From positions 1-45,832 of the forward strand of contig JAEHDK010000613.1 in NCBI GenBank assembly GCA_016880465.1: a DNA stretch of 45,832 nt, read 5' to 3'. The notes under the pieces were generated by a model. The model had not been told where the DNA came from. It worked only from the letters and a program-made list of their open reading frames with translations, and did not search any database. Shown here in pieces: positions 2,665 to 41,336 of this stretch (position 1 is its first letter; every line of letters starts with the position of its first letter). The position numbers and the translations under genes are program-made. Source of the DNA: Micromonosporaceae bacterium. Its GTDB lineage: Bacteria; Actinomycetota; Actinomycetes; Mycobacteriales; Micromonosporaceae.

Positions 2665-2699
2665 GAGTACTTTGTACCTGTCCCATCGGGTATCGCCAA

Positions 2700-2713
2700 G
2701 GGCCGAAGGTCCT
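2700..2713. promoter_or_regulatory. Candidate DevR-box-like site GGGCCGAAGGTCCT
   Basis: One mismatch to GGGNCN4GNCCC; 35 nt upstream of the devR-like start (minus strand). Confidence 0.4.
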
Positions 2714-2911
2714 CTTCGGTTCGGCGCCGAATCAGTAGCCCTAATTGTCGGAATTATGGCATTTGGATCGGGGGCTGCTCGGACGTTGTCGGCCCGGTAC
2801 CACGATCGGCAATGCCTGCGAACGCGGTACGGAGCCGATGGTCCGCGCGAACGGTGACCTTAAGCACTGAGCCTCAGTATCGACGTCCTCGACGGTGAAA
2901 GGGGAAGGGAG

Positions 2912-3364: not shown

Positions 3365-3425
3365 GCTGGGCTCGGCGTACGACGGCCTTGCGATTGTGCG
3401 ACAAGCGTCAATGCGGGCCCGAGCC

Positions 3426-3462
3426 GGGTCCTTCGACTCTGGACGGGTTGGTCCCTCGACCC
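3426..3462. promoter_or_regulatory. Tandem DevR-box-like sites GGGTCCTTCGACTC (3426-3439) and TGGTCCCTCGACCC (3449-3462)
   Basis: Each has one mismatch to GGGNCN4GNCCC; shared GGTCCYTCGACYC; proximal site ends 59 nt before the USP start. Confidence 0.45.
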
Positions 3463-3521
3463 TGTCGCACCAGCGGTCGTGGGCAGCACCCTGTCGGTGA
3501 GGGATGACCAAGGGAGGAGAA

Positions 3522-4397: not shown

Positions 4398-4398
4398 C

Positions 4399-4448
4399 CA
4401 CCTGCCGCGGAGGACCATCGTCCGTTGTGGACGATGGTCCTCCAGGTG
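4399..4448 (+). terminator. Strong hairpin: perfect 15-bp stem GGAGGACCATCGTCC-gttgt-GGACGATGGTCCTCC (4409-4443), outer CACCT/AGGTG
   Basis: Perfect inverted repeat just downstream of the USP stop codon. Confidence 0.75.
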
Positions 4449-4463
4449 CCGGTCCTACCGGCA
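4447..4463. promoter_or_regulatory. Perfect dyad TGCCGGT-cct-ACCGGCA
   Basis: Inverted repeat 54 nt upstream of the acyl-CoA synthetase start; could be operator or structure. Confidence 0.3.
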
Positions 4464-4517
4464 GTCCCCGCCCGGGTCGGCTGAACCTGTCGATCGGGTG
4501 AGAAGGAAGAGACCACG

Positions 4518-7160: not shown

Positions 7161-7198
7161 ACGCCACCACGGGTCGACATGGAGATGAGGCGGGTGAC

Positions 7199-7750
7199 AT
7201 GAGAGTTCTCGTCACAGTTGCCAGCAGGCACGGGTCCACGTGGGAGATCGGCGAAGCCATCGGCCGCACGCTTCGGGACCACGGGCTCGAGGCGGACGTA
7301 CTGCGCCCGGAGGAGGTCGCCACCCTCGACGGGTACCGCGCGGTCGTGGCGGGCAGCGCCGTCTACTTGGGACGGTGGCTGGACAGCGCTCGGCAGCTGG
7401 TAAAGAAGCACGCGGACACGTTGGCCACCCTGCCGGTGTGGCTGTTCTCGAGCGGACCGGTCGGCGCCCCGCTGCGACCGGCCGAAGAACCGGCCGAAGC
7501 CGCGGCCCTGATGAGCGCCACCGGCGCCCAGTCGCATCGGCTGTTCCCCGGAAAGCTCGACCGGCACACCCTCGGACTTGCCGAAAAGACCGTCACCATA
7601 GCCCTGCGTGCGCCCGATGGCGACTTCCGGGACTGGCCGGCCGTCCACGATTGGGCGGCGGATATCGCGTCCACACTGTGCGCCGACCCAACGGCAGAGC
7701 GACCTCGGGCGCCGAGCGGGACCGCGCCGACGATGCCCAAGGCGGAATAG
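7199..7750 (+). CDS. Flavodoxin-domain protein
   Basis: MRVLVTVASRHGSTWEIGEAIG.. flavodoxin P-loop-like start; GSAVYLGRW motif. Confidence 0.8.
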   Translation: MRVLVTVASRHGSTWEIGEAIGRTLRDHGLEADVLRPEEVATLDGYRAVVAGSAVYLGRWLDSARQLVKKHADTLATLPVWLFSSGPVGAPLRPAEEPAEAAALMSATGAQSHRLFPGKLDRHTLGLAEKTVTIALRAPDGDFRDWPAVHDWAADIASTLCADPTAERPRAPSGTAPTMPKAE

Positions 7751-7760
7751 GAGGTGCCCG

Positions 7761-7994
7761 ATGCCAATGATGAATGGATTCGGCGCGGTATTCTGGCCGG
7801 TGATACTGCTGCTCGTCGCGGTGGTCGGGATTACGGTCGCGTTTCTCGCCACGGCGATGAAACGCTCGGACCCCGATGCCACGGCCGCTGACGACCCGGC
7901 CGAAGACGCCCTCCGGATGCGGTTCGCCCGCGGAGAGGTCGGCGTCGAGGACTACGAACGTGACTTGGCGTTGTTGCGGAGCCGCCGGTCCTGA
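7761..7994 (+). CDS. Small SHOCT-domain membrane protein
   Basis: One TM helix followed by DALRMRFARGEVGVEDYERDLALLR, typical of SHOCT; RBS aggaggtg before ATG. Confidence 0.75.
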   Translation: MPMMNGFGAVFWPVILLLVAVVGITVAFLATAMKRSDPDATAADDPAEDALRMRFARGEVGVEDYERDLALLRSRRS

Positions 7995-8020
7995 CGGGTT
8001 CGCCCGGACCGCCTGACGCG

Positions 8021-8052
8021 AGCCGAGCCCGGGCCATGTCCCGGGCTCGGCT
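8021..8052 (+). terminator. Hairpin AGCCGAGCCCGGG-ccatgt-CCCGGGCTCGGCT
   Basis: Perfect 13-bp stem downstream of the SHOCT gene. Confidence 0.75.
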
Positions 8053-8060
8053 GGTTGCCT

Positions 8061-8100
8061 GGGTCCGTCGCCGCAACACCTGGTCCAGGCCGAACGTCCC
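8061..8100. promoter_or_regulatory. DevR-box-like pair GGGTCCGTCGCCGC (8061-8074) and AGGCCGAACGTCCC (8087-8100)
   Basis: Each has one mismatch to GGGNCN4GNCCC; upstream of the first acg-like gene. Confidence 0.35.
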
Positions 8101-8181
8101 GGGCAGGCGGGCGGCTGGCCTCTGCCGGGCGGCTGGTGCAGCCCTCCAGCATGAGGTTGACCAACGACCACGGGAGGCACG

Positions 8182-9303
8182 ATGAACGTCGACCTTGGCC
8201 GCCGGACCGACGACGGTGGGCTGGGCGCGGCACTGCCCGACTGCCTGTCCGCGGCAATCGCAGCCCCGTCGATACACAACACGCAGCCGTGGCGCTTCCG
8301 GGTCGCCGAGCATCACATCGACGTGCTCGCCGACCTTACCCGGCGGTTGGACGTGGTCGATAAGGCCAGTCGCGAGCTGTATCTCAGCTTGGGCGCGGCC
8401 GTACTGAACCTGCGGGTGGCGATCGCGGCGCACGGTCGCGCACCCATCATGCGCCTGCTACCCGACGCCGGCAAGACAGAACTGGTCGCCCGCATAGCGC
8501 CCGGTGCCGCCCAGCACAGGTCGGAGACGACCCGCCTGCTTGCGCGGGCCATCCCGCAGCGGCGCACCAACCGTAGGCCGTTCTTCGCCATCGGCGTGCC
8601 GCCAGAGGTGATCGCGGAGTTGCAGGCGGCGGCCGCCATTGAAGGCGCTCGTCTCGTACCGGTCGACGCCACGGGTCGGGACGCGGTGCTGGGCATCGTG
8701 CGCACAGCCGAGATGCTACGCCGCCGCGATCCGGCGTACCGCCAGGAACTGGCCAACTGGACGATCGAAGTACCACCGCGCCGGGACGGCATCCCGCCAG
8801 CCGCGTACGGCCCGTGGAGTGCGCTGGAGTCGATACCCCTGCGCGACTTCGGGCTTGTCCAGCCGGCCCGGCACCGCACGACCGTGTCGTTCGAACCCGA
8901 GCCGACCCTGGCCATCCTCTACTCCGCGGGCGACGGCCCGGAGCAGTGGCTGCGTGCCGGTCAGGCGCTGGAGCGGCTGTGGCTGACCGCGACGGTGCGC
9001 GGCCTGGCGACGACGCTGATGACCCAGCCGTTGGAGATTCCGCAGCTGAGGTCGTTGTTCCACGACCGAGACCGGGGCCAGGCCGCACAAGCGATCCTGC
9101 GCTTCGGGTACGGTCCACCCGCGCCGCCGTCGCCACGCCGGCCGCTGGAGTCGTTCGTCATGGACCATGCACCCGCAGCCCGCACCGGGTGGCCGAGCGA
9201 GGCGATCCGGCCCGTCGGCACGCCTCGGATCGGGACCTTCGGCTCCGGACCGGTGCCGTCTGGTCCTACCTGGAGGCACAGCGGCAGCGGTCCGATGGGA
9301 TAG
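8182..9303 (+). CDS. Acg-family nitroreductase-like protein 1
   Basis: AAPSIHNTQPWRFRV and RRTNRRPF motifs of the Acg family. Confidence 0.82.
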   Translation: MNVDLGRRTDDGGLGAALPDCLSAAIAAPSIHNTQPWRFRVAEHHIDVLADLTRRLDVVDKASRELYLSLGAAVLNLRVAIAAHGRAPIMRLLPDAGKTELVARIAPGAAQHRSETTRLLARAIPQRRTNRRPFFAIGVPPEVIAELQAAAAIEGARLVPVDATGRDAVLGIVRTAEMLRRRDPAYRQELANWTIEVPPRRDGIPPAAYGPWSALESIPLRDFGLVQPARHRTTVSFEPEPTLAILYSAGDGPEQWLRAGQALERLWLTATVRGLATTLMTQPLEIPQLRSLFHDRDRGQAAQAILRFGYGPPAPPSPRRPLESFVMDHAPAARTGWPSEAIRPVGTPRIGTFGSGPVPSGPTWRHSGSGPMG

Positions 9304-9308
9304 ACAAC

Positions 9309-9328
9309 GCCGGCCGACCCGGCCGGCG
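9309..9328 (+). terminator. GC hairpin CGCCGGCC-gacc-GGCCGGCG
   Basis: 8-bp perfect inverted repeat between acg-like 1 and the doxX-like gene. Confidence 0.35.
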
Positions 9329-9348
9329 ACCAAGAGGGGAGAAACGCC

Positions 9349-9978
9349 ATGACAACCATGGTTCCCCCGCGCCACAGGCCAGGCATGGACGACAAGGCGG
9401 CCGGCCCCGAGGCGCGGCGCACAACGCCCATCTCAACAGCGTCGACCGCCACCCCGCCCGAGTCGACAGCAGCGCGGACCGGCCGGCCGGCCGCCGGCGC
9501 CGTCGCCCGGTACGCCTGGTTCGTCGCGAGGATCGCGATGGCCTGGATCTTCCTCTGGGCCTTCCTGGACAAGGTGTTCGGGTGGGGGTACTCGACCCAA
9601 GCCGGCAAGGGGTGGATCGACGGCGGCAGCCCGACGAAGGGCTTCCTGTCCGGGGCCAAGGGACCGTTCGCCGACTTCTACCACGACCTGGCCGGTACGG
9701 CGTTCGCCAACTGGGCGTTCATGCTGGGCCTGCTCGGCATCGGCGTAGCGCTGCTGGCTGGTGTCGGCATGCGTATCGCGGCCGCAGCCGGGGCGCTGTT
9801 GCTGACGATGATGTACACGGTCGTGCTTCCGCCTACCACGAACCCGTTGATCGACGACCACATCGTCCTCGCTGTCCTGCTGGTGGGCCTGGCGGCGGCC
9901 GGCGCCGGCAACACCCTGGGGCTGGGCCGCTGGTGGGCCGGTACCGGTCTCGTCAAGCGCTTCCCCTGGCTCAAGTGA
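9349..9978 (+). CDS. DoxX/DoxD-like membrane protein
   Basis: RYAWFVARIAMAWIFLWAFLDKVFGWGYST.. typical of the DoxX/TQO small subunit family; four TM segments. Confidence 0.75.
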   Translation: MTTMVPPRHRPGMDDKAAGPEARRTTPISTASTATPPESTAARTGRPAAGAVARYAWFVARIAMAWIFLWAFLDKVFGWGYSTQAGKGWIDGGSPTKGFLSGAKGPFADFYHDLAGTAFANWAFMLGLLGIGVALLAGVGMRIAAAAGALLLTMMYTVVLPPTTNPLIDDHIVLAVLLVGLAAAGAGNTLGLGRWWAGTGLVKRFPWLK

Positions 9979-10026
9979 CCGGCTCCGGCTCGGCCCCGAG
10001 CCGAACACGTGGCCGTTGCCACGCAT

Positions 10027-10060
10027 CTCCCGGCGCATCCTGCCCAGGATGCGCCGGGAG
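10027..10060 (+). terminator. Hairpin CTCCCGGCGCATCCTG-cc-CAGGATGCGCCGGGAG
   Basis: Perfect 16-bp stem downstream of the doxX-like gene. Confidence 0.8.
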
Positions 10061-10173
10061 AGATTTGGCCTAGCCGCCGGTACCGTGACTTACCTGCGGC
10101 ACTACCACACCCGCCGGTACGGCGTTGATCCACCAGATGTCCGCGACTGGATCCGGCAGGAAGGGAAGTCACG

Positions 10174-11151
10174 ATGAGCGGCACCAACCCGGCGGCGGCA
10201 CTGGCCGAGGCGGCTGCGGCAGCCGCGCGAGCACCCTCGGTGCACAACACCCAGCCGTGGCGCTGGCGCGTCAGCCCGGACGGCCTGGACCTGTACGCCG
10301 AGCGCAGCCGCCAGCTGACCGCGACAGACCCCGATGGCCGGATGCTGACCATCAGTTGCGGCGCCGCCCTGCACCACGCGCGGATCGCGCTCGCGGCCGA
10401 GGGCTGGGTCGCGTCGGTCGACCTGCTTCCGACCAAGGGTGATCCGGACCACCTGGCGCGCATCACGCTGGCCGGCCGCACCGACGTCACACCGGCCGCC
10501 ATGCGGTTGGTGCAGACCATCGCGGTCCGGTACACCGACCGGCGGCCCACTGTCGACGTACCCATCCCCGCCGACGCGTTCGAAGCGCTGCGCCGGGAGG
10601 CCGGTACCGAACACATGGGCCTACATCCCCTGCGCACGAGCGGCCTTGCCGAGCTCGCCGCCGCCGCGGCGGCGGCCAACCGGATCGGCGTCGCGGACCT
10701 CGACCAGCGCGCCGAGCTGGCGTACTGGATCGGCGGCGAGCGCCCGAGCGGCGCCGGCGTACCGGACGCCGCGATCCCCGCACAACCGCCGCAGACCGGC
10801 GTACCCGAACGCGACTTCGGCCACCCCGGCACGCTCGCGGTCGGGACCGGCCACGACGCGAAGGCCACGTACGCCATCCTCTTCGGCCGCGGCGACCAAC
10901 CCGCCGACTGGATCCGCGCGGGCGAGACGCTGTCCGCCGTATGGCTGCTCGCCACCGAGCTCGGCATCGCGGTTCTCCCGCTCAGCTCGGTCGTGGAGAT
11001 ACCGGCCACCCGGGAGCGGCTGCACCACATCTTGTCCAACCTGTACATCCCGTATCTCGTGCTACGGCTTGGCAAGGCCGATCCCGACCACGCGGGCGCG
11101 GCCCGCACACCCCGGCTCGGCCCCGAGCAGACCATCGAACGCGCAGGCTAG
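10174..11151 (+). CDS. Acg-family nitroreductase-like protein 2
   Basis: ARAPSVHNTQPWRWRV, RYTDRRPT motifs. Confidence 0.85.
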   Translation: MSGTNPAAALAEAAAAAARAPSVHNTQPWRWRVSPDGLDLYAERSRQLTATDPDGRMLTISCGAALHHARIALAAEGWVASVDLLPTKGDPDHLARITLAGRTDVTPAAMRLVQTIAVRYTDRRPTVDVPIPADAFEALRREAGTEHMGLHPLRTSGLAELAAAAAAANRIGVADLDQRAELAYWIGGERPSGAGVPDAAIPAQPPQTGVPERDFGHPGTLAVGTGHDAKATYAILFGRGDQPADWIRAGETLSAVWLLATELGIAVLPLSSVVEIPATRERLHHILSNLYIPYLVLRLGKADPDHAGAARTPRLGPEQTIERAG

Positions 11152-11238
11152 CCCGGTCCGGCCGCGACCTTCGGCGACGATCGCGGGTAACCGTGGCGGC
11201 GCCACTCAGGTCCCGCACACCTGGATACCCGCCGAGTC

Positions 11239-11252
11239 GGGACGTACGGCCC
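11239..11252. promoter_or_regulatory. DevR-box-like site GGGACGTACGGCCC
   Basis: Matches GGGNCN4GNCCC at all specified positions; ends 54 nt before the acg-like 3 start. Confidence 0.5.
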
Positions 11253-11306
11253 TGCACATCATCAGCGTGCGGGCACAGGGTATGGCTGAGGACAAGGAGA
11301 CTGGTC

Positions 11307-12302
11307 ATGACCCGCTCGGACGCTCGGGAGAGCGCGCTGACCGCGGCGGTTCGCGCCGCACTGCATGCGCCGTCGGTGTTCAACACGCAGCCGTGGCAGT
11401 GGCACCTGGACGGCGATGCAGCCGAGCTGTACCTGGACAGTGATCGGCGACTCGAGGTGGTGGATCCACTCGGCCGGCTCATGACGGTCAGCTGCGGGGT
11501 GGCCCTGCACCACGCCCGGATGGCGCTCGCGGCGGAAGGGCAGGGCGTACTTGTCGAGCGCCGGCCGGCCGACGGCCCACCCACACTGGTCGCCCGGTTA
11601 CATATGCTGCTCGACCACGAACCCACGGATGACGAGCGCGCCATGTACGCCGCGATCCCTTGTCGGCGCACCGACCGGAGGCCCTACAGCGACGATCCGG
11701 TCCCCGGCGCGGTGGCCGCTGGGTTGGTGGCGGCAGCGAGGCGCGAGGGCGCGGTCCTGCACATCCTGCGACCAGACCAGGTGCCGGCGTTCGCCGTGGC
11801 GGTGGCTCGCGCCGGTGACCTGGAGATGGTCGACCCGGAGTACCGCGGCGAGCTGATCCGCTGGACGAACCGTCCACCGTGGAGCAATGACGGTGTACCG
11901 CCGACCACGGCCGTGCGGCCCGCACTGCGCGCCATACCGCCCCGCGAGTTCTCGCTTGGCGTGGAGCGCGGGATGCATCCCGGGTCGGGTACCGACCGGG
12001 GCGCTCTGTTCGCGATCCTCACCGTGGGGCGGGATGACGAGACCGGCTGGATCCACGGGGGTGAGGCGCTGTCGGCTGTCCTGCTCACCGCGACCGCCAA
12101 GGGCCTGGCCACCGCACCCATCAGCGACGTGATCGAGGTCGGGGTCACCCGTGAGGCGGTACGCAGACTGCTCGGCACGGCGCGACACCCGTACGCCGCC
12201 ATCCGCTTCGGCTACGGGGCGCCCGCCACGGATCTGCCTGCCGTACCACGGCGCCCGGCACACGAGGTCATCGCGAGCGTGGACGATGGACGTGCGCGAT
12301 GA
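11307..12302 (+). CDS. Acg-family nitroreductase-like protein 3
   Basis: HAPSVFNTQPWQWHL, RRTDRRPY motifs. Confidence 0.85.
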   Translation: MTRSDARESALTAAVRAALHAPSVFNTQPWQWHLDGDAAELYLDSDRRLEVVDPLGRLMTVSCGVALHHARMALAAEGQGVLVERRPADGPPTLVARLHMLLDHEPTDDERAMYAAIPCRRTDRRPYSDDPVPGAVAAGLVAAARREGAVLHILRPDQVPAFAVAVARAGDLEMVDPEYRGELIRWTNRPPWSNDGVPPTTAVRPALRAIPPREFSLGVERGMHPGSGTDRGALFAILTVGRDDETGWIHGGEALSAVLLTATAKGLATAPISDVIEVGVTREAVRRLLGTARHPYAAIRFGYGAPATDLPAVPRRPAHEVIASVDDGRAR

Positions 12303-13261
12303 CCACCGTCGACCTCACCCCTCGACTCCATGCCGCGGTCGATGCCGCGATCCGGGCGCCCTCCCTGCACAACACCCAGCCGTGGCGGTTCCGCTGCCGG
12401 GACGGCAGCCTGGAGGTACGGCTGGACCGTTCCCGCCGCCTGGCCGTCGCCGATCCGCGCGGCTGGGCCGCCCGGCTCGCCTGCGGGGCGGCCGCCCTGA
12501 ACGCCCGGCTGGCGCTGGCCGTGCTGGGCCTCGCGACCACCGTGCGGCTCAGGCCGGACCCTACCGACTCCGACCTGATGATCCAGCTGACGTGTGGTGG
12601 CGACCAGGCACCGACGCCGATCGAGCAACGCCTCTTCGACGCCATCGCGCGCCGGCGCAGCAACCGGGCCCCGTTCTGGCCGCAGCCGGTGCCCGCCGAC
12701 GCGCGGGCGGCGCTCGTCGCCGCTGCCCGCGTCGAGAACGCCTGGCTCGAGCTGGTCATCGGTACCCCGGCCGTCGAGGCAATCACCGAGATCGCCCGGG
12801 CGGCCGGCCGGGTGCTCGACCGCGATCCGGCGTACCGGGCCGAGATGCGCGCGTGGGCCCGCGACGACGACAGCGCTCGCGACGGGGTGCCGTGGTGGGC
12901 CGGAGGCGTCAGCCAGGAACCGCACGACGTGCTACCGGTACGTGATTCCGGCGGACCTACCCGAGCGCCCGGGCAGGCCTTCGAGGGTGAGCCGTTGGTG
13001 GCCGTCCTCGGAGCGGCCGGCGACGGCGCCAACGACCAGCTGACCGCAGGCATGGCTCTGCAACGGGTTCTGCTCACCGCCACCGCCGCGGGGCTCGCCG
13101 CGTCGATGCTGTCCCAGCCGATCGAGGTAGCCGCCGCGCGCGAGCAGCTGCGGATCGCGCTCGGCCGGTACGGGACACCGCAGATGGTCGTGCGGATCGG
13201 TTACGGCCGGCCCGCCTTCCGCACCCCCCGCCGACCGCCCACCGACGTCATCGATGCCTGA
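12299..13261 (+). CDS. Acg-family nitroreductase-like protein 4
   Basis: RAPSLHNTQPWRFRC, RRSNRAPF motifs; ATGA overlap with preceding gene. Confidence 0.85.
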   Translation: MTTVDLTPRLHAAVDAAIRAPSLHNTQPWRFRCRDGSLEVRLDRSRRLAVADPRGWAARLACGAAALNARLALAVLGLATTVRLRPDPTDSDLMIQLTCGGDQAPTPIEQRLFDAIARRRSNRAPFWPQPVPADARAALVAAARVENAWLELVIGTPAVEAITEIARAAGRVLDRDPAYRAEMRAWARDDDSARDGVPWWAGGVSQEPHDVLPVRDSGGPTRAPGQAFEGEPLVAVLGAAGDGANDQLTAGMALQRVLLTATAAGLAASMLSQPIEVAAAREQLRIALGRYGTPQMVVRIGYGRPAFRTPRRPPTDVIDA

Positions 13262-13297
13262 GGCCGCTGTCGCTCACCGTCCACAAAGGAGAACGTC

Positions 13298-14191
13298 ATG
13301 GACAACAGCAAGCAACCCATTGTCGTCGGCGTGGACGGCTCATCAAGCAGCACCATCGCGGCCGAGTACGCCGCTGCGCTGGCCGTCCGGCGGAACCGAC
13401 CGCTGCTGCTGGTGCACGGGTATCTCTATCCGTCCGCCTACGGCGCGCTCGGGTTCAGCCCGTACTCGCCGGTCATGCCCGATACCCGCGACAGCGTCGA
13501 TGCCATGATGAAGGCGTCGGCGGAGCACCTGCGCCAGCAGTACCCGGATCTTGATATCGGCACCCTGCAGGTCGCGGCCGGTGGCGCCCTTGCTCTGATC
13601 GAGCAGTCACAACGGGCCGAACTCCTCGTCGTCGGCTGCCGCGGGCTGGGCGGCTTCGCCGAGCTGTTGCTCGGCTCGGTCAGCTCGCAGGTCGCCGCAC
13701 ACGCGGACTGCCCGGTCATCGTCATCCGTCCAGCCGATACGCCACCCCCGGCTGACGCGCCGATCATCGTCGGTGTCGACGGCTCACCCGAGTCCGCACT
13801 GGCGGTCGGCTTCGGTTTCACCGAGGCAGCCGCCCGGGGCGTGGGCGTCACCGTGCTCAACGTCTACTGGGTCACCGCCCACCTGGACCTGCGCCGCTCC
13901 GGCGAGGAGCTCGACAACGAGGCCCGGGAACACGCCGGCCATCTTGTCAGCGAAGCCGTCCGTCCCTGGCTCGACAGGTACCCGGATGTCCCGGTGACGA
14001 CGACCTTGCTGCACCATCTGAACCCCGAGTACCAGCTGGCCGAAGCATCGCGCGGGGCCAGCCTCGTCGTGGTTGGTGCCCGCGGCCGGGGTGGCTTCAC
14101 CGGTCTACTACTCGGCTCGGTCAGCCAGGCCCTCGTCCACCATGGCCACTGCCCCGTCGCGGTCGTCCACGCCCACCGGAAGAGTCAATGA
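13298..14191 (+). CDS. Universal stress protein, tandem USP domains
   Basis: PIVVGVDGSSSS.., PIIVGVDGSPES.., GARGRGGFTGLLLGSVS. Confidence 0.9.
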   Translation: MDNSKQPIVVGVDGSSSSTIAAEYAAALAVRRNRPLLLVHGYLYPSAYGALGFSPYSPVMPDTRDSVDAMMKASAEHLRQQYPDLDIGTLQVAAGGALALIEQSQRAELLVVGCRGLGGFAELLLGSVSSQVAAHADCPVIVIRPADTPPPADAPIIVGVDGSPESALAVGFGFTEAAARGVGVTVLNVYWVTAHLDLRRSGEELDNEAREHAGHLVSEAVRPWLDRYPDVPVTTTLLHHLNPEYQLAEASRGASLVVVGARGRGGFTGLLLGSVSQALVHHGHCPVAVVHAHRKSQ

Positions 14192-17703: not shown

Positions 17704-19206
17704 TCACAGGTCGTTGCCGGCGTACGAAAGGTTGAAGCTCTTGTTGGCCAGTGGGAAGTCCGGCACGATCGTATCGACCATGGCCAATGGCAGTGCGGGC
17801 CAGTTGAGGAACGACGGGTCGACGATCTTCCAGCGGGCCAGGGCGGCGGCGTCCGGGTGCAGTTCCACGCGGTGCACGATCGTGCCGCGCCAGCCTTCCA
17901 CGATCCCTACCCCGGACGTGGATGCGCCCGCGGCGGGCGGGACCCGGCTGGCGAGCCGGGTCGCCAGCAGTGTCGGGAGTAGCTCCCGTAGCAGTGCGGC
18001 CGATGTCTGCGCCTCCTGCGCGCGAACCAGGAACCGGGCCAGAACGTCGCCGCTGGTGTGCTGCGGAACGGTCACCGTACTGCCCTGGTCGCAGAAGGGG
18101 TGCGCCACGCGCGCGTCATAGGACAGGCCGCTGGCTTTGGCCACGTAGCCAAGGGTGCCGGTGTCGACGGCCTGCTGGCGGGTCAGTACGGCGGTGCCGG
18201 TGAACCGTTCGCGGATGACACTGTTGCCGAGCGCGATGTCGACGACCTGGGCAAGGTCGGTGGCGATCGCGCGGATGTCGGACGTGTCGGGGATGTGGTT
18301 CAGCGCCGCGCCGCCTGGAAAGATTCCGCCGCGTAGTAGCCGGTGGCCGGTGGTGGCCTTGTTCAGCCGCAGCAGTCGTTCCCGGATTCGTTGGGTGTGG
18401 GCGTGGGCGATGCCGTACGCGACGTCGTTGCACAGCGCCCCGATGTCTGCCACGTGGTTGTGTAGGCGTTCGAGCTCGAGCAGTGCGGCCCGCATCCGCG
18501 CGATGCCGGGCGACGTCTGGATGCGAAGTGCGTCCTCGACGGCGAGGCAGTAGGCAAGGGTATGGCCGGCGGCGGTGTCCCCGGACACCCGTTCCGCGAG
18601 GGCGAGGCCGTCGTCGACGGACTTTCCTTCGCTGAGCTTCTCGATGCCTTTGTGGACGTACCAGAGGCGGGCTTTGAGTTTGAGGACGGTCTCGCCGACA
18701 ACCGAGAACCGGAAGTGGCCTGGTTCGATGAGTCCGGCATGCACGGGCCCGACGGGGATCTCGTATACGCCATCGCCCTCCACGGTCAGGAACGGGAATG
18801 GCTGCGCCGTGGACGGCTCCGGCCGGGGACCGGCGTCGCGGCGCATCGGGTGCCACGACGCGGGCCAGCGCGGGTGGTGGACCAGCGAGCGGGGCAGCGG
18901 GTGGTTGTCGGGTTCGATGCCGTACAGGTCCCGCATCTCCCTCTCGAACCGGCTGGCCGGGAACGAGATGCTGGCCAGGCTGGGAACGTGCGGTTCGGCG
19001 GCAGCGGCGCGCAGCACCAGCTCGACGCGCCGGTCGGGCGGACCGGCGGTGAACACGTACACCACGCGGAACATCTCCCTGCCGCGGTCCGCTGGGGAGT
19101 CGTGGTGGGCGGCGACGAGGGCGAGCCGGTACCCGTTGCCAAGGAGCCCGGCGGCGTGGGTGGCCAGGTCCGTGGCATCGATATCGAGGCGGCTGAACTC
19201 GGCCAT
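17704..19206 (-). CDS. Hydrogenase-4/complex I NuoCD (HyfG/HycE)-like large subunit lacking NiFe cysteine motifs
   Basis: HKGIEKLSEGKS and ERVSGDTAAGHT region aligns by eye to HycE ERVCGICG; C-terminus IVPDFPLANKSFNLSYAGNDL in place of DPCxxC. Confidence 0.88.
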   Translation of the reverse strand: MAEFSRLDIDATDLATHAAGLLGNGYRLALVAAHHDSPADRGREMFRVVYVFTAGPPDRRVELVLRAAAAEPHVPSLASISFPASRFEREMRDLYGIEPDNHPLPRSLVHHPRWPASWHPMRRDAGPRPEPSTAQPFPFLTVEGDGVYEIPVGPVHAGLIEPGHFRFSVVGETVLKLKARLWYVHKGIEKLSEGKSVDDGLALAERVSGDTAAGHTLAYCLAVEDALRIQTSPGIARMRAALLELERLHNHVADIGALCNDVAYGIAHAHTQRIRERLLRLNKATTGHRLLRGGIFPGGAALNHIPDTSDIRAIATDLAQVVDIALGNSVIRERFTGTAVLTRQQAVDTGTLGYVAKASGLSYDARVAHPFCDQGSTVTVPQHTSGDVLARFLVRAQEAQTSAALLRELLPTLLATRLASRVPPAAGASTSGVGIVEGWRGTIVHRVELHPDAAALARWKIVDPSFLNWPALPLAMVDTIVPDFPLANKSFNLSYAGNDL

Positions 19207-19207
19207 G

Positions 19208-20692
19208 TCAGCTGCCCCCGGCGATGAGGGCTGCGGCGTCCAGGATCCGCTGCAGCGGCCCCAGCCAGATGCCCAGCGCTACGGCCGCGGCTAGACCCAC
19301 AGCAAGGGGCAGCCAACCTTGCCCGCCGCCGGCTGTCGATGCCGGTTCCCCGCCAGTCGATGGCGACCCGGGCTGCTCGCCCAGCAGCATCGCGGCGGTG
19401 TGCCGGGCGACTGCGGTGAACGCGACCAGGACCAGGACGAACGCGGCGGCGACGGCCCAGCCGAGGCCGCCTGCCCAGCCGGCTCGGGCGATGCCGAGCT
19501 CGGAGGAGAACAGGGCGAACGGTGGCATCCCGAGCAGCGCGGCAATCGCCAGGCCGAAATGGGCGGCCAATCCCGGGGTACGGCTGGCCAGCCCGCGTAC
19601 CGCGTCGATGTGCGGGCTGCGCACCGTGTGCAGGATCTTCCCGGCGCTGCAGAATGCGACTGCTTTGGCTAGGCCGTGGCCGAGGATGTGTAGCAGGACC
19701 GAGGCCAACGCGAGCCGTCCGCCGACCGCGGTACCCAGGGCGACCAGGCCCATGTGCTCGATGGACGAGTACGCCAGGAGACGCTTGTAGTCGCGCTGGG
19801 CGATGAGCAGCAACGCCGCTACGGCAAGCGAGGCCAGCGCCGCGATGAGCAGCAGGGTGCGGGTGTAGTCGGGGCCGAGCGCGATGTCGGTCATGGTCTT
19901 GTAGCGCAGGATGGCGTAGAACGCGACCGACAGCAGCACCCCCGACATGAGAGCGGACACGGGAGCAGGCGCTTGGCTGTGCGCGTCGGGGAGCCAGGAG
20001 TGCATCGGGGCCAGGCCCGCTTTGGTGCCGAAGCCGAGCAGGACAAGTCCGGCGGCCAGCCGAATGAGGTCGGGGTCGAGCTCGGCGGCATGGGCGTGCA
20101 GGTACGTCCAGTTCAGCGCGGTGACGCCGTGGGCACCGGTGGCGACGGCGGCGGCGTAGACGCAGACGGTGCCGAGGAACGCTATGGCGATGCCGACAGA
20201 GCACAGCACGACGTACTTCCAGGCGGCTTCGACGCTTTCCCGGGTGCGCCGGTGCCCGACCAGAAAGGCGGTGACGATGGTGGTGGCCTCGACCGCCACC
20301 CACAGCAACCCCAGGTTGTCAGCGAGGACGGCCAGGCACATGCAGCCCAGGAACAGTTGGACCAGTACCAGGTACCGGCGGGCCGCCCCGACCGCGGTGG
20401 CGTCGGCGGTGAGCTCGTCGCGCAGGTGGCTGACCCCGGCCCAGCAGGCGATGGTGGCGACCGCGCCGACGGCGATGAGCAGGTAGGCGGTCAGCGCGTC
20501 CGCGCGTAGGAACCCCGAGGTGAGGGTCGAGCCATGAGCGGTGTGGGCGGCCAGCGCTATGCCACTGCCCAGGGTGGCTGCGGCGGCGAGCACGGACGCC
20601 CAGGCAGCGGTCCGCCAGGCAAGGACGGCCGCGAATGCGGCGGCCAGAAAGGGGGCGGCTGCCGGTGCGTAGAGGGCAACGGTCGGACGCAT
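19208..20692 (-). CDS. Proton-translocating antiporter-like subunit (HyfF/NuoN/NuoM-like)
   Basis: GTKAGLAPMHSWLPDAHSQAPAPVSALMSGVLL motif, ~14 TM; start MRPTVALYAP at 20692 with ATGA overlap. Confidence 0.88.
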   Translation of the reverse strand: MRPTVALYAPAAAPFLAAAFAAVLAWRTAAWASVLAAAATLGSGIALAAHTAHGSTLTSGFLRADALTAYLLIAVGAVATIACWAGVSHLRDELTADATAVGAARRYLVLVQLFLGCMCLAVLADNLGLLWVAVEATTIVTAFLVGHRRTRESVEAAWKYVVLCSVGIAIAFLGTVCVYAAAVATGAHGVTALNWTYLHAHAAELDPDLIRLAAGLVLLGFGTKAGLAPMHSWLPDAHSQAPAPVSALMSGVLLSVAFYAILRYKTMTDIALGPDYTRTLLLIAALASLAVAALLLIAQRDYKRLLAYSSIEHMGLVALGTAVGGRLALASVLLHILGHGLAKAVAFCSAGKILHTVRSPHIDAVRGLASRTPGLAAHFGLAIAALLGMPPFALFSSELGIARAGWAGGLGWAVAAAFVLVLVAFTAVARHTAAMLLGEQPGSPSTGGEPASTAGGGQGWLPLAVGLAAAVALGIWLGPLQRILDAAALIAGGS

Positions 20693-21351
20693 CAGTCGTG
20701 CAGCTCTCGTAGTTCGTCGAGGTCGGTACTCCCGAAGGTGGCGTGCAGACGGTTGGTGAGAATCTGCAGCACCAGGACCGCCAGGGCCAGGTCGGCGGAC
20801 ACGCCGAGCTCGACCACGAGCGGTACGCCGCCCGTGGCCAGGAACGCGACGGCGGCGATGCCGTTGTCTATGAGCAGCACGCCGATGATCTGGGAGATGG
20901 CGCGTTGGCGGGTGGCGGCGAGGAAGAACCCGATCAGCACCACCGCCAAGCCGACCGGTGTGGCGCGGCCGGACGCCGACGACGCCGCCGCGACGAGGGG
21001 ACGGGCGGCCGCGTAGCCGAGCAGGGTCAGCCCGGCGGCGGCGAGGATAGAGGCCGAGATGTTGACCAGGGGCCGCGTCTCGCGGGCGTCCGGTACGAGG
21101 CGGTGCACCCGGCGCAGCATCCACGGCACGATGCCGGCTTTGAGGATGCCGATGCCGGCGGCGACGGCGAGCGCAGCTGCGCTGTGGTGCTCGGCGGCGA
21201 GCAGGACCGCGATGGTGGTGAGCAGCGCGCCTTGCAGGGTGAGCAGGCTGACCAGCGCCGAAACCTGGCGGCGCCAGAGGACCCCGAGGGCGGTGAGGAG
21301 GAACAATCCACATGCCAGGTTGAGCAACTGGCTGGACACATCATGGCTCAT
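20692..21351 (-). CDS. HyfE-like membrane subunit
   Basis: Hydrophobic 219 aa protein between antiporter and HycD-like subunits; position and profile match HyfE/Rv0085. Confidence 0.78.
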   Translation of the reverse strand: MSHDVSSQLLNLACGLFLLTALGVLWRRQVSALVSLLTLQGALLTTIAVLLAAEHHSAAALAVAAGIGILKAGIVPWMLRRVHRLVPDARETRPLVNISASILAAAGLTLLGYAAARPLVAAASSASGRATPVGLAVVLIGFFLAATRQRAISQIIGVLLIDNGIAAVAFLATGGVPLVVELGVSADLALAVLVLQILTNRLHATFGSTDLDELRELHD

Positions 21352-21362
21352 CGCATGCTTCC

Positions 21363-22301
21363 TCAGGCCAGGATGGCGGAGGCAAGGACGGCGAGCAGTC
21401 CGAGGAAGAACGACCCAGCCAGCAGTTCGGGGACCCGGAACAGGCGCAGCTTCGCCGTCCAGACCTCACCGGCGCTCAGCAGTGCGGCAAGTCCACAGAC
21501 CTTGCCGATGAACACGGCGGCCCCGACGGCGAGCCACATCGGGTCCAGGCTCGTGGCGACCCCCCAGGGGGCGAACAGGTTCGCCAACAGACCGAGCAGG
21601 ATGCTCAGCCGCAGCGCCGCCGCCCATTCGACCAGAGCCAGGTCACGGCCGGAGTATTCGAGGACCATCGCTTCGTGCACCATGGTCAGTTCCAGGTGCG
21701 TGGCGGGGTTGTCCACCGGGATCCGGCCGGTCTCCGCCAGCGTTGCGATGGCCAGAGCGGCGGCGGCCAGCAGGCTCGCTGGGGTGAAGACCCGGGCCGG
21801 TTCGGTGGCGCCCGCGGCGACGATCCTGGACAGGTCGGTCGAGCCGACCCGAAAGGACAACGCGAACACGGCTAGGAGCAGGGTGGGCTCGACCAACGCC
21901 GCGATCACCATGGCACGGCTGGCACCCATGCCCCCGAACGCGGTTCCGGTGTCCAGTCCGGCCAAGGCCAGGGCGACGGTGCCGAGCAGCAGCAGTCCGA
22001 CGACGACGATCAGGTCCGCGCCCCCGAACAACGAGGTGGCCGCGATGAAAGGCCCGGTGGCCGCGACGATGAGGCTGGTGGCCATCATCACCGCCGGCGC
22101 GGCAACGAAGAACATGCTGGCGTCGGCGGGGCTGGTGGGCTGCTTGCGCAGCTGCTTGCACAGGTCCCGCCACGGTTGCGCGATGCGGCCACCGGCGCGG
22201 CCTGCCAGCCGTGCCGGTACCGCCCGGGTGACTCCCACCACCAGCGGCGCGGCCAGCGCGAGCAGTGCGGCCTGGGCGACCGCAACCAGCCACGGCGTCA
22301 C
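21363..22301 (-). CDS. HycD/HyfC/NuoH-like membrane subunit
   Basis: TGRIPVDNPATHLELTMVHEAMVLEYSGRDLALVEWAA motif of HycD/NuoH; GTG start at 22301. Confidence 0.88.
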   Translation of the reverse strand: MTPWLVAVAQAALLALAAPLVVGVTRAVPARLAGRAGGRIAQPWRDLCKQLRKQPTSPADASMFFVAAPAVMMATSLIVAATGPFIAATSLFGGADLIVVVGLLLLGTVALALAGLDTGTAFGGMGASRAMVIAALVEPTLLLAVFALSFRVGSTDLSRIVAAGATEPARVFTPASLLAAAALAIATLAETGRIPVDNPATHLELTMVHEAMVLEYSGRDLALVEWAAALRLSILLGLLANLFAPWGVATSLDPMWLAVGAAVFIGKVCGLAALLSAGEVWTAKLRLFRVPELLAGSFFLGLLAVLASAILA

Positions 22302-24316
22302 CGGATCACCCCCGCGACGAGCACGACGACGAGCGCGACGAGCATGTATGCCAGATAGCGGTGTACGCTGCCCGACGCCAGCGCGCGCGCCCGGGTGCCG
22401 ACGGCGGCAACGGTGTCCACCACGGGCCGGTAGAGGCGGTTCTCGATCCGGTCGGGGATCTGCTGGTGATAGCGGATCGCCGCTACGTGGTAGGCGGATT
22501 CGGTGTCGTGGGTGACGTCGATATCGCGTTCGGGGGCCAGCACGTCGTCGAAGACCCGTTGCAGCGGCTCGGCGAACGAGGTCGCGGTGTACTCCATCCG
22601 GGCGGTGAGCGGTCCGTCGCCGCAGTCCCAGGCGATGGCCCGGCGCCGCGCCCGGCCGAGGCTGCGCGCGGTGACCGCGACCGTGCCCGTGACGGCGACG
22701 ATGCCGACCGCGAGCCACAGCGGCCGGACGCTGGCGGCGGTGCCGGCCAGGTGCAGCCCGAGTACCTCCCGGTTAACCGGTGTCCCGCCGAGCTGCAGGC
22801 CGGCCAGTACGCGGGTAAGCGCCGGTGTCGCGAGTGCGGGCACGACCGCCAGGGCGACGCAGCCGGCTGCGGCCACGCCCATGGCGGTGAGCATGCTGGC
22901 TGGTGACTCGACGGCACGAGCCGCGCAGTCGCTACGGGGTCGGGCGAGAAAGCCGGTGCCGACGGCTTTGACGAAGGTCACTACTGCCACCCCGGTGGTC
23001 AGCGCGACCACCGCGACGGCCAACGGCGCGGCGATCGTCAGGGCGGTGTCCGCGCCCTGGCCGGGATGCAGAAAGGCTTGCAGGAGCAGCCACTCCGAGA
23101 CGAATCCGTTGCCGGGGGGCAAGGCCGCGGCGGCCAGTGCACCGGTGGCAACGAAGGCGGTGGTGACGGGCATCGGCCGCACCAAGCCGCCCAACTGGTC
23201 GAGATGCCGGGTGCCGGTGGCCCGGACCACGGACCCGGCACCCGCAAACAGCAGGGTCTTGAATGCGGCGTGGTTGACGGTGTGCAGCAGGACCGCCGTC
23301 ATGGCCAGCCCCGCCGCAAGCGTGTTGCCGGCGTGGGCGAGCACGCCGGTAAAGCCGATGCCGAGCAGGATCAGCCCGATGTTCTCGCTGGTGGAGAACG
23401 CCAGCAGGCGTTTGAGGTCGCCGGCGACGGCTGCCTGCATGATCCCGTACAGGGCCGACAGCGCGCCAAGGGCGGCGACGACCAGCCACCACCAGCGTGG
23501 TCCGCCGCCGAGTAGGTCGAACCCGACCCGCAGGATGCCGTATACCCCGAGTTTGACCATGGCGGCGCTCATCAGCATGGAGACGTGGCTCGGTGCTTCG
23601 GCGTGGGCGCGGGGCAGCCACGGGTGCAGCGGCACCGCCCCGGCCTTCGAGGCGAACCCGGCCAGGCACAACAGGAAGACCGCGCCGGTGACGGCCGCCG
23701 GCAGGTGACCCGCAGCAGAGCGGATGCCGGCGAAGCTGACCGAACCGGTGGCAGCGGCCAGCCAGAGCAGCCCGACAAGCAGAGCGACGAATCCGGCCTG
23801 GGTCATCGCCGCGTACCAGACCCCAGCGGAACGAACCGCGGCGCGGTGCCGGTGTTCGGTGAGGACCAGCAGCAGCGAGGCGACCGCCATCAGCTCCCAG
23901 ACAGCAAGCAGCGTCGGCACGCTCCCGGCGACCGGCACCAGGGCCATGGCGGCGGTGAAGACGGGAAGTACGGTCAGCGACGTGCCCGAGCCGGGACCGC
24001 GGCCGTCACCCCCGGCGTAGCCGATCGTGTAGATGCCCACGACGGTGGTGACCGCGCCGACGATCACCAGGAACCAGCCCGACAGGGCGTCCGCATCTAG
24101 GGTCAACCCCGCAAGCGGCAGCACACCGGGCAACTCGGCCCGCCAACCGATCCCGGTCACCGCCGCGATCCCGGCTGCGACACCGGCCGTACCGGACACC
24201 GCCGTCAGGACACCGACGACACGTGCCCGCCACCGGGAAGGCGTGCCGATCGCGGCCACGGATGCGCACATGGCCAGGCCGGTGGTGGCGGCCAGGCCGG
24301 CCGCGATGGGGTTCAC
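22298..24316 (-). CDS. HyfB/NuoL-like antiporter subunit
   Basis: SKAGAVPLHPWLPRAHAEAPSHVSMLMSAAMVKLGVYGILR; ~16 TM. Confidence 0.9.
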   Translation of the reverse strand: MNPIAAGLAATTGLAMCASVAAIGTPSRWRARVVGVLTAVSGTAGVAAGIAAVTGIGWRAELPGVLPLAGLTLDADALSGWFLVIVGAVTTVVGIYTIGYAGGDGRGPGSGTSLTVLPVFTAAMALVPVAGSVPTLLAVWELMAVASLLLVLTEHRHRAAVRSAGVWYAAMTQAGFVALLVGLLWLAAATGSVSFAGIRSAAGHLPAAVTGAVFLLCLAGFASKAGAVPLHPWLPRAHAEAPSHVSMLMSAAMVKLGVYGILRVGFDLLGGGPRWWWLVVAALGALSALYGIMQAAVAGDLKRLLAFSTSENIGLILLGIGFTGVLAHAGNTLAAGLAMTAVLLHTVNHAAFKTLLFAGAGSVVRATGTRHLDQLGGLVRPMPVTTAFVATGALAAAALPPGNGFVSEWLLLQAFLHPGQGADTALTIAAPLAVAVVALTTGVAVVTFVKAVGTGFLARPRSDCAARAVESPASMLTAMGVAAAGCVALAVVPALATPALTRVLAGLQLGGTPVNREVLGLHLAGTAASVRPLWLAVGIVAVTGTVAVTARSLGRARRRAIAWDCGDGPLTARMEYTATSFAEPLQRVFDDVLAPERDIDVTHDTESAYHVAAIRYHQQIPDRIENRLYRPVVDTVAAVGTRARALASGSVHRYLAYMLVALVVVLVAGVIR

Positions 24317-24789
24317 CGGCCGGTCAGGCCGCGCAACGCAGCGACTATCGCGTCCGGTTCCGGCGGGCAGCCAGGCACCTGCGCATCGACCGGGACCACA
24401 TCCGATACCGGGCCGGCCACGCCATGCCCACCCGCGAACACGCCACAGTCCTTTGCGCAGTCGCCGATCGCGACGACCAGGCGCGGTTCGGGCATCGCCT
24501 CGTACGCCTTGCGCAACGCGCTGGCCATGTTGACCGTCACCGGCCCGGTCACCGTCAACACGTCGGCGTGGCGGGGCGAGGCCACCAGCCGGACGCCATA
24601 CCGTTCGATGTCATAGACGGGCGAGAACGCCTGCCCAATCTCGATCTCACAGCCGTTGCACGATCCGGCGTCGACGTGCCGGACCTGTACCGACCCGGCC
24701 AGTCCAGCCGCTTGCGGCAGCCGTTCACCACGATCGCCGGCCGGTTCGGCGACCCGGCCCGCGGATCGGATCTTGCGGATCAGGCCCAC
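24313..24789 (-). CDS. NuoB/HyfI/HycG-like [4Fe-4S] subunit
   Basis: SCNGCEIE..VTGPVT..GDCAKDCGVF..VPGCPPEP N2-type ligand pattern; likely GTG start 24789 (ORF open to 24831). Confidence 0.85.
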   Translation of the reverse strand: MGLIRKIRSAGRVAEPAGDRGERLPQAAGLAGSVQVRHVDAGSCNGCEIEIGQAFSPVYDIERYGVRLVASPRHADVLTVTGPVTVNMASALRKAYEAMPEPRLVVAIGDCAKDCGVFAGGHGVAGPVSDVVPVDAQVPGCPPEPDAIVAALRGLTGR

Positions 24790-24919
24790 GCCGACACCGC
24801 TTGCCCGGCCGGACACCGGTCCCTGACACACGCGGACTGGCCAGCGGGGCGACGGACATCCGAAGCTGTCCGGTGCACGCTGGCTCGGTCGGGCCGGGCG
24901 GCGGTTCGGGAGGCAGGCG

Positions 24920-25261
24920 TCAGGACTGGGTCGCGCCGTCGGCGCGCAGGTCGTCGAGCAACTCCACCTGTACGGACAACACCTCGGTCAAGATCCGGCG
25001 GGCGACCGCCAGAAGTTCGGCGACCTGCGGGCTGACCAGCGAGTAGTAGACGGTGGAGCCCTCCTTGCGGCTGACGACGAGGTTCAACCGGCGCAACACC
25101 GACAACTGCTGGGAGAGGTGTGCCGGCTCGATACCGACCTGCGGCAGCATCGCGGACACCGGATGCTCGCGCTCGGAGAGCAATTCCAGCACCCGGATGC
25201 GCGCCGGATGAGCCAGGGCCTTGAAGAACTCGGCCTTGGCCTGGTACAGCGGTGTGTTCAC
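24920..25261 (-). CDS. ArsR-family transcriptional regulator, Rv0081-like
   Basis: LYQAKAEFFKALAHPARIRVLELLSERE..HLSQQLSVLRRLNLVVSRKEGSTVYYSL; contains no cysteine. Confidence 0.9.
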   Translation of the reverse strand: MNTPLYQAKAEFFKALAHPARIRVLELLSEREHPVSAMLPQVGIEPAHLSQQLSVLRRLNLVVSRKEGSTVYYSLVSPQVAELLAVARRILTEVLSVQVELLDDLRADGATQS

Positions 25262-25404: not shown

Positions 25405-25436
25405 TTCACAAGTTGCTAAACTTAGCAAGTAGTGAA
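25405..25436. promoter_or_regulatory. 32-bp nested dyad TTCAC-aag-TTGCTAA-ac-TTAGCAA-gta-GTGAA (candidate ArsR operator)
   Basis: Two perfectly centred inverted repeats in the divergent arsR-pckA intergenic region, AT-rich in a GC-rich context. Confidence 0.7.
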
Positions 25437-25503
25437 GCCGCTGGGAAGATCGCGCCCGCCGGGGCTGCTGCGCCGACAACCCAGCACCGGGAAGGACCCA
25501 TCG

Positions 25504-27333
25504 ATGACTGATCCGGCGCCGCTGCGGCTGCCCAGCAATCCCCCGACCAGCCACCCACGGCTTCTAGCCTGGGTGACCGAGGTCGCGGCACTGACCACCC
25601 CGGAGCAGATCGTCTGGTGCGACGGGTCGGCGGAGGAATGGCAGCGGCTCACCAACCAGCTCGTCGACGGCGGTACCCTCGTGCGGCTCAACGAGGCGAA
25701 GAAGCCGAACTCGTTCCTGGCCCGCACCGACGCGTCCGACGTCGCTCGCGTCGAGGACCGCACCTTCATCTGCTCGCTCGACGAGACCGACGCCGGTCCG
25801 ACCAACAACTGGCGCGCCCCGGGCGAGCTGAAGCAGCTGTTGACCGACCTGTACCGCGGCTGTATGGCTGGGCGCACCATGTACGTCATCCCGTTCTGCA
25901 TGGGCCCCCTCGACGCCGAAGAACCCAAGTTCGGCGTCGAGGTCACCGACTCGGCATACGTCGCGGCCAGCATGAAGATCATGACCCGGATGGGTACGCC
26001 GGTCCTGGACGTGATGGGTACGGACGCCGACTTCGTGCCCGCCCTTCACTCGGTCGGCGCGCCCCTTGCCCCTGGGCAGGCGGACGTAGGATGGCCGTGC
26101 AGCGACACCAAATACATCGCCCACTTCCCGGAGACACGCGAAATCTGGTCCTACGGCTCCGGGTACGGCGGCAACTCGTTGCTCGGCAAGAAGTGCTACA
26201 GCCTGCGCATCGCCTCGGTGATGGCGCGGGACGAGGGCTGGCTGGCCGAGCACATGCTCATCCTCAAGCTCACCAACCCGGCCGGCAATGTGTACTACAT
26301 CGCCGCGGCGTTCCCGTCCTCCTGCGGCAAGACGAATCTGGCCATGCTGGAACCCACGATCGACGGCTGGACGGTCGAGACCCTCGGTGACGACATCGCC
26401 TGGATGAGGTTCGGCGACGACGGCCGGCTCTACGCGATCAACCCGGAGTACGGGTTCTTCGGCGTAGCGCCGGGCACCGACTACACCACCAACCCCAACG
26501 CCATGCGCACCCTGGACAAGGGCAACTCGCTATTCACCAACGTCGCGTACACCGACGACGGTGACGTGTGGTGGGAAGGCATGGCTACGCCACCGGGCCA
26601 TCTCACCGACTGGCTCGGCCGCGACTGGACGTCCGGCACCGCCGCGCCATCGGCACACCCCAACAGCCGGTTCTGCACCCCGATCACGCAGTGCCCGATC
26701 CTGGCACCCGAATACGACGACCCACGCGGCGTGCCGATCTCGGCGATGCTGTTCGGCGGCCGGCGCAAGACCACCATCCCCCTTGTCGTGCAGGCACGGG
26801 ACTGGAACCACGGGGTCTTCATGGGCGCCACCCTGTCCAGCGAAACGACGGCGGCCGCGGTCGGGCAGGTCGGCGTCGTGCGCCGGGACCCGATGGCCAT
26901 GCTGCCCTTCATCGGCTACCACGCCGGGGACTACCTGCGGCACTGGACCACGATCGGCAAGCACTCGGCCAACCCGGACCTGCTGCCGTCGATTTTCCAG
27001 GTCAACTGGTTCCGCCGCGGCAGCGACGGCCGCTTCCTGTGGCCCGGTTACGGGGAGAACTCGCGCGTACTGAAATGGGTAATCGAACGCTTGGAAGGCA
27101 CCGCGGACGCCGTGGACACCCCGATCGGATACGTACCGGCGCCGGGGGCGATCGACACCAGCGGCCTCGAACTCCCGCCTGCGGACCTGGCGGCCGCCCT
27201 ACGGGTCGACCCCGCGGAATGGACGCAGGAGATCCCGCAGATCACCGAGTGGTTCGCCACGTTCGGCGACCGGATCCCCGCCACCCTGTGGGCCGAGCTC
27301 GACACCCTGAAAGCACGGCTGGTCAGCCCGTAA
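25504..27333 (+). CDS. pckG: Phosphoenolpyruvate carboxykinase (GTP)
   Basis: [48 protein letters not shown] motifs. Confidence 0.95.
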
Positions 27334-39591: not shown

Positions 39592-39594
39592 GCC

Positions 39595-41335: not shown

Positions 41336-41336
41336 G

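Follow-up and report, generated by a model that had tools for sequence, protein, structure and literature searches.

A nickel-free energy-converting hydrogenase-related complex in a Micromonosporaceae bacterium, with a predicted polar pocket at the former NiFe site

Results

The large-subunit gene (ehrL) found in the window, i.e. the whole 45,832-nucleotide stretch of DNA analysed here, almost certainly encodes part of a six-subunit, nickel-free energy-converting hydrogenase-related (Ehr) complex (HyfI-B-C-E-F-G) related to complex I, in which the place of the nickel ligands appears to have become a new, conserved pocket instead of degenerating. The explanation that best fits the whole, to which we assign a probability of about 0.5, is a nickel-free Ehr in which a ligand pocket would gate the pump and the [4Fe-4S] cluster would serve as an optional input. 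The identity of the complex as an Ehr is near certain, and its mechanism is what we infer.

Identity of the large subunit and its operon

The open reading frame of EhrL was confirmed to exist and to lie on the minus strand, running from an ATG at 19206 down to 17704; the plus strand of the same interval contains internal stops. The protein matched the Pfam models Complex1_30kDa and Complex1_49kDa and, marginally, NiFeSe_Hases (28.0 bits; cut-off 25.8), and its matches to complex I and hydrogenase models of NCBIfam were all sub-threshold. Since the NiFeSe_Hases score exceeds the cut-off, automatic annotation could name EhrL a nickel hydrogenase; the preliminary description had warned of such a misannotation with good reason, as M. 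tuberculosis rv0084-rv0087 are listed as possible formate hydrogenlyase/hydrogenase. The best match among solved structures was E. coli HycE (7z0s_E; phmmer, E 1.4e-53). An AlphaFold model of EhrL (mean pLDDT 81.4, with values below 50 at residues 135-180 and 494-500, i.e. around the pocket and the C-terminus) matched the fold of HycE with a TM-score of 0.82 and that of complex I (NuoCD/Nqo4) with a TM-score of 0.77.

Upstream of ehrL, on the same strand, are found genes for HyfF-, HyfE-, HyfC-, HyfB- and HyfI-like subunits and an ArsR-family regulator (Table 1). The antiporter-like and NuoH-like membrane subunits expected of an Ehr are thus present, as is the NuoB-like small subunit with its proximal cluster cysteines, which have been lost in two other lineages (see below). 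Every pump residue checked in the ion-translocating membrane arm is kept, and judging from this residue conservation the complex very probably translocates ions.

Table 1 Features of the Ehr operon in the window. Residue numbers of the HyfF-like subunit refer to a 490-aa version starting 4 codons later.
Feature	Coordinates	Strand	Length (aa)	Residues and remarks
HyfG/HycE/NuoCD-like large subunit (EhrL)	17704..19206	-	500	S208-G209-D210-T211 and S494/G497 replace the NiFe cysteines
HyfF-like antiporter subunit	19208..20692	-	494	E131, K220, H335, K339 conserved
HyfE-like (NuoK-related) membrane subunit	20692..21351	-	219	
HyfC/HycD/NuoH-like membrane subunit	21363..22301	-	312	E138, E190, D197, E204, E210, E215, E279 conserved
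HyfB-like antiporter subunit	22298..24316	-	672	E141, K224, H349, K353 conserved
HyfI/HycG/NuoB-like small subunit	24313..24831	-	172	[4Fe-4S] cysteines C58, C61, C125, C155; D124 beside C125
ArsR-family regulator	24920..25261	-		Same place as Rv0081-type regulator; ORF family beside Ehr in 29 loci

Several other genes of the window deserve mention. A GTP-dependent PEP carboxykinase (PEPCK; 25432-27333) adjoins the operon, and a few other loci likewise have it near Ehr. Some 13-19 kb away from the window operon (38218-43960), we found an NAD(P) transhydrogenase beta subunit, a TPP-enzyme C-terminal-domain protein, possibly of the 2-oxoacid:ferredoxin oxidoreductase type, and a Fer4-flavoprotein (42335-43960); a link of the latter to Ehr was discarded as too weak (present in 5 of the 24 carriers versus 18 of 273 other genomes, p 0.028 uncorrected for kinship). 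At 2023-14191, a LuxR-type response regulator, two universal stress proteins, an acyl-CoA-ligase/GNAT fusion and several nitroreductase-like proteins are reminiscent of the mycobacterial DosR regulon, and a DosR-box search of the window gave no match.

The former NiFe site

In an alignment with HycE and HyfG of E. coli MG1655, the motif LSDRVCGICGFAHS reads LAERVSGDTAAGHT in EhrL (C-G-I-C becoming S208-G209-D210-T211) and the C-terminal motif IIGSLDPCYSCTDR reads ANKSFNLSYAGNDL (D-P-C-Y-S-C becoming N-L-S494-Y-A-G497), the four nickel-ligand cysteines being replaced by S208, T211, S494 and G497. The claim that all four are absent therefore stands, and compensating cysteines at ligand positions, which had been named as the finding that would speak against it, were not found in this alignment: none of the remaining EhrL cysteines (in AYCLAVED, ALCNDV and HPFCDQ) aligned with a nickel-ligand position.

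The same replacement, together with the change of I/A/V to D210, is fixed across about 99 relatives. Among the 99 Cys-less relatives, which come from many phyla, aspartate occupies position 210 in 99/99 and position 261 in 98/98, serine or threonine occupies position 211 in 96%, and S494 and G497 are found in 99%. Altogether, E161, S208, D210, T211, N250, D261, R440, N492 and S494 are strictly conserved polar residues at or around the place of the former NiFe cofactor. D261 aligns with Nqo4 D139, which pairs with the quinone His in complex I; every Cys-less Ehr has Asp at this position, whereas the Cys-bearing sisters described below have Gly and HycE has Phe. E. coli HycE and HyfG continue for 32 further residues after CTDR, a stretch that a maturation protease removes; EhrL and its relatives end exactly at that point, as mature HycE does, so nothing is left for such a protease to cut. 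I160 and G209 occupy the positions of Nqo4 H38 and Y87, the quinone-ligating His and Tyr of complex I, and every member has Ile and Gly there; MbhL E21 is the counterpart of E161, and the Arg in the PRG motif of hydrogenases that of R440 (for the roles of Nqo4 H38 and Y87 and of MbhL E21, see PMC7684303).

Relatives and a cysteine-bearing sister clade

Ehr complexes have been reported from mycobacteria, Nitrospira and ammonia-oxidising archaea. Our scan of the genome collection yielded at least 584 confirmed relatives, the best 80 of which belong to Actinomycetota, Acidobacteriota, Rokubacteria, Nitrospirota, Pseudomonadota, Verrucomicrobiota, Bacillota, Omnitrophota, Nitrososphaeraceae and Patescibacteria. 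All four cysteines are kept in L103 (Thermincola), L106 (Bacillota), L109 and L111 (both Acidobacteriota), among these best 80, and in L027, which came from the class search. Cys-bearing members fall near the base of the group in the tree, and a single Cys-less clade was not rejected (p-AU 0.54), which allows, but does not prove, one loss of the nickel cysteines instead of several. The sister clade formed by L103, L106, L109 and L111 is probably group 4f-like. It shares with EhrL the subunit types, where readable, the NKSF C-terminus without extension and I160, but keeps CGxC and CYxC and has A/V at 210, G at 261 and E at 492.

When the Cys-less set was compared with these four sisters, which are few sequences for the purpose, consistent differences were found in HyfG at S208, D210, T211, D261, W439, N492, S494, G497, L500, L203 and D463, in HyfI at four columns including D124, beside the cluster Cys125, and in HyfC at A211 and L232; HyfB, HyfF and HyfE showed zero fixed differences. 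As the changes are concentrated in the HyfG pocket and spare the antiporter subunits, the transition to Ehr looks like the conversion of an active site on an unaltered pump. That these columns line one pocket is suggested by homology, the model being of low confidence there, so that the geometry of the proposed pocket is tentative. Two genomes also carry short, divergent homologues of the Ehr large subunit (L028 in G012 and L030 in G035; 309-362 aa as read); they lack the pocket motif and have a different C-terminus (DLPDPAP), and G035 carries one of them in addition to a normal Ehr.

Independence from nickel maturation

HypD was surveyed in 297 genomes of the class, 24 of which carry the close Ehr family. 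Eleven of the 24 carriers lack HypD, some of them listed as 100% complete, and so do named isolates, among them Mycolicibacter kumamotonensis, Actinopolymorpha pittospori, Pseudonocardia acaciae and two Cryobacterium; the dependence on Hyp maturation that marks group 4 [NiFe] hydrogenases, as do the four nickel-ligand cysteines that EhrL lacks, is therefore not seen in these carriers. HypD is present in three of the four Cys-bearing sisters. Over the survey, Ehr and HypD co-occurred above expectation (p 0.003, uncorrected for kinship). On another contig of the window's genome (C808, 5550-10908), HypD stands beside the large subunit of a separate NiFe hydrogenase whose cysteine motifs are intact, so the Hyp genes of this genome are uninformative about Ehr. 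Separately, the genome of L027 (G011), listed as 98% complete, encodes a Cys-bearing large subunit (CAGC, LCYAC) and gave no HypD match, so that NiFe maturation is apparently missing despite the four cysteines.

One fixed pocket shared by 99 Cys-less relatives, together with the 11 Ehr genomes without HypD, argues that the replacement of the nickel ligands is not decay. Operon make-up, missing ligands and HypD-free genomes all agree with the preliminary assignment to an Ehr-type complex lacking the NiFe site. A cryptic hydrogenase was ruled out by the absence of HypD from carriers and by the missing C-terminal extension. A working hydrogenase with alternative nickel ligands would be in keeping with the retained active-site Glu (E161) and Arg (R440), but with cysteine at none of the four ligand positions, no maturation extension and many carriers free of HypD, it can hardly be entertained.

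Electron path

The six Ehr subunits have ligands for a single cluster, located in HyfI, where all four [4Fe-4S] cysteines are intact in the window and the CNGC spacing is hydrogenase-like. A relay subunit with two clusters is present in the characterised redox members of the complex I superfamily; in formate hydrogenlyase (FHL) this is HycF. No ferredoxin-type relay subunit is encoded in the window operon, nor are FdhF or a HycB/HycF-type relay, which define formate hydrogenlyase; the NuoE/F/G/I electron-input and relay subunits of complex I are equally absent, from the window ORFs and the loci compared. A regular-expression search for ferredoxin motifs revealed no recurrent relay gene in the flanks of 80 loci, nor did a ferredoxin or formate dehydrogenase partner recur there; just the ArsR gene did so widely and sensibly. 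All four cluster cysteines are kept in about 77 of the 88 aligned HyfI sequences (three E. coli references included), the window's among them, indicating that the cluster is under selection in most lineages and that electron transfer may be the normal function there.

Relatives that have lost cluster ligands

Some or all of the [4Fe-4S] cysteines are missing from HyfI in Patescibacteria and Microbacteriaceae, the loci being L085, L099, L193, L194 and L196 and L060, L064, L070, L212 and L215-L223. In Daviesbacteria L085 (a contig of 1,096,538 bases) the four cluster positions read T-C-D-D, and in L099, an unclassified small-genome MAG grouping with L085 in the tree, D-C-D-D. Searching 374 genomes of the Daviesbacteria class gave five full-length Ehr carriers, L085 included; among the new ones, two have T-C-D-D and one T-E-D-D, and in the fifth, HyfI lies beyond the contig end. 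In Microbacteriaceae, C155 is lost (S or N) in 9 of 9 readable HyfI. Seven of these have lost that one cysteine only (CCCS, CCCN) and might still bind a cluster, and two have lost three (GCAS, ACAS).

Wherever HyfG was read in relatives lacking cluster ligands, its pocket is intact; the pump residues checked are likewise intact, except in HyfE of L193. The dN/dS values of HyfI were 0.07 (L060/L064), 0.14 (G886/G878) and about 0.08 (L085/L193, dS near saturation), indicating that HyfI without its cluster ligands is kept under purifying selection, and the model of the Daviesbacteria HyfI predicts a fold that is still NuoB/MbhJ-like. Fer4_7 had no match in any of six carriers with small genomes, namely five Patescibacteria and the MAG L099, while it was present in 14 of 14 controls and in every other carrier tested. 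The Daviesbacteria contig gave no match for menB, menC, menD, menF, ubiA, cydA, fdhF or POR, nor for NuoEFG, HycB/HycF or HypD, and the genome gave none for COX1. The absence of quinones from Daviesbacteria is argued from the missing men (menB, menC, menD, menF) and ubiA homologues; an argument from UbiA as such was dropped, given one weak, partial UbiA-superfamily match in the genome. The Ehr operon of Daviesbacteria lies a few kilobases from F-type ATP synthase genes (L085, 16-21 kb; contig 781-800 kb), and a second pair of ATPase-like genes occurs at about 1.09 Mb. A literature search, with most subscription journals outside its scope, found no paper on cluster-free Ehr forms, and their presence in Patescibacteria and Microbacteriaceae is likely, though not established, to be a new observation.

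Discussion

Ehr complexes lacking the CxxC motifs are already known, and the literature states no substrate or function for them, as the preliminary description had it (PMC6349859, PMC10284858, PMC10432482); the name stands for the energy-converting hydrogenase-related complexes of Marreiros et al. 2013, as cited in PMC10284858 and PMC6349859. The window complex is another member, with a group-4-hydrogenase-type large subunit of the HycE/HyfG fold lacking the NiFe-binding CxxC pairs and with antiporter-like subunits. The Ehr large subunit of Nitrospira moscoviensis (L081) is 43% identical to EhrL, belongs to the Cys-less set and has the SGD pocket. The actinobacterial gene order differs, being I-B-C-E-F-G, often with an ArsR gene, and mostly B-C-E-F-G-I elsewhere. 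M. tuberculosis Rv0081-Rv0087, annotated as a possible formate hydrogenlyase (hycD/P/Q/E), has the same regulator type and subunit order when compared by published annotation alone, and mycobacterial relatives (L037, L042, L049) fall in the same Cys-less clade as EhrL; the lack of a DosR box sets the window apart.

Outside the Ehr group, FHL (HycE) and hydrogenase-4 (HyfG) of E. coli are closest in structure and share nearly all pump residues, but the window complex lacks their NiFe cysteines and C-terminal extension, as well as the FHL-type relay and FdhF. Complex I shares the fold, the lack of a NiFe site and the Asp at the D139 position, and differs in its quinone His and Tyr and its NuoE/F/G/I modules. 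The sulfane sulfur reductase MBS of Pyrococcus has also lost its NiFe site in part and lacks the equivalents of Nqo4 H38 and Y87. It keeps two pocket cysteines and has a cluster relay, a hydrophobic pocket and, next to its proximal cluster, a shortened CxxC loop; the Glu found as E161 in EhrL is absent from it, and EhrL for its part has no pocket cysteine.

We propose that the polar pocket would bind a proton, an ion or a small polar ligand and that its occupancy would drive or gate ion translocation by HyfC/HyfB/HyfF; electrons arriving at the HyfI cluster would then be an accessory input, or redox gate, in the lineages that keep the cluster, the window's included. The redox input should be dispensable, given that cluster ligands are gone from two lineages in which everything else is retained. 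A pocket that merely served as electron-acceptor site should decay without the cluster, and no decay is seen, which favours a pocket for a ligand, ion or proton. The role of the pocket thus seems separable from electron transfer, and on the sequences compared we put a pocket function needing no electrons at roughly even odds. The cluster-free forms could, however, have arisen as secondary adaptations and so say little about the complex in the window. We advance only tentatively, somewhat short of even odds, the joint proposition that Patescibacteria and some Microbacteriaceae carry a fully or largely cofactor-free Ehr and that Ehr, though it belongs to the complex I superfamily, is fundamentally non-redox: its polar pocket would work the membrane arm without electrons, with the [4Fe-4S] cluster as an optional redox gate.

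That most lineages keep the cluster makes a redox-driven pump a serious rival, although we find it rather doubtful. A soluble low-potential donor, ferredoxin for instance, would dock straight onto HyfI, and the single cluster would hand the electrons on to menaquinone or a small molecule as acceptor in the remodelled pocket. Ion pumping would follow the complex I pattern, and lineages without the cluster would have lost the electron function and retained a leftover antiport. The widely kept cluster cysteines and the match of D261 to the coupling Asp of complex I fit such a pump, as do the respiratory chain and ferredoxins of the window's genome, the ferredoxin-linked enzymes close by and a literature that treats Ehr as probably redox-coupled. 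Against it stand the flanks without a recurrent relay subunit, the Ile and Gly at the H38 and Y87 positions of all members, the pocket still fixed where cluster ligands are gone and the Patescibacteria carriers without a ferredoxin match.

A proton-motive-force-driven non-redox enzyme, in which the pocket would serve catalysis or transport of something polar, no electrons being involved, is improbable, though it has a precedent by analogy in DAB2, where a NuoL-like subunit links the hydration of CO2, i.e. non-redox chemistry, to proton flow (PMC13144422). The polar, acidic and invariant pocket, the intact antiporter subunits and a CO2-linked PEPCK next to the window operon and near a few other loci would suit it; but HyfG resembles complex I and hydrogenase subunits, not carbonic anhydrase, in sequence and fold, no metal ligand set was recognised, and the adjacency of PEPCK is limited to those few loci.

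Under the preferred reading of a nickel-free complex with a gating pocket, D210, D261, T211, S494 and N492 are concrete targets for mutagenesis, and the cofactor-free forms make the driving reaction of Ehr directly testable: if ions move there, electron transfer is not the driver. The mycobacterial genes should not be read as formate hydrogenlyase. Ehr complexes are widespread and have so far been left without an assigned function; that selection maintains the complex in some distant bacteria after the loss of every metal-binding site suggests that electron transfer may not be its basic task at all.
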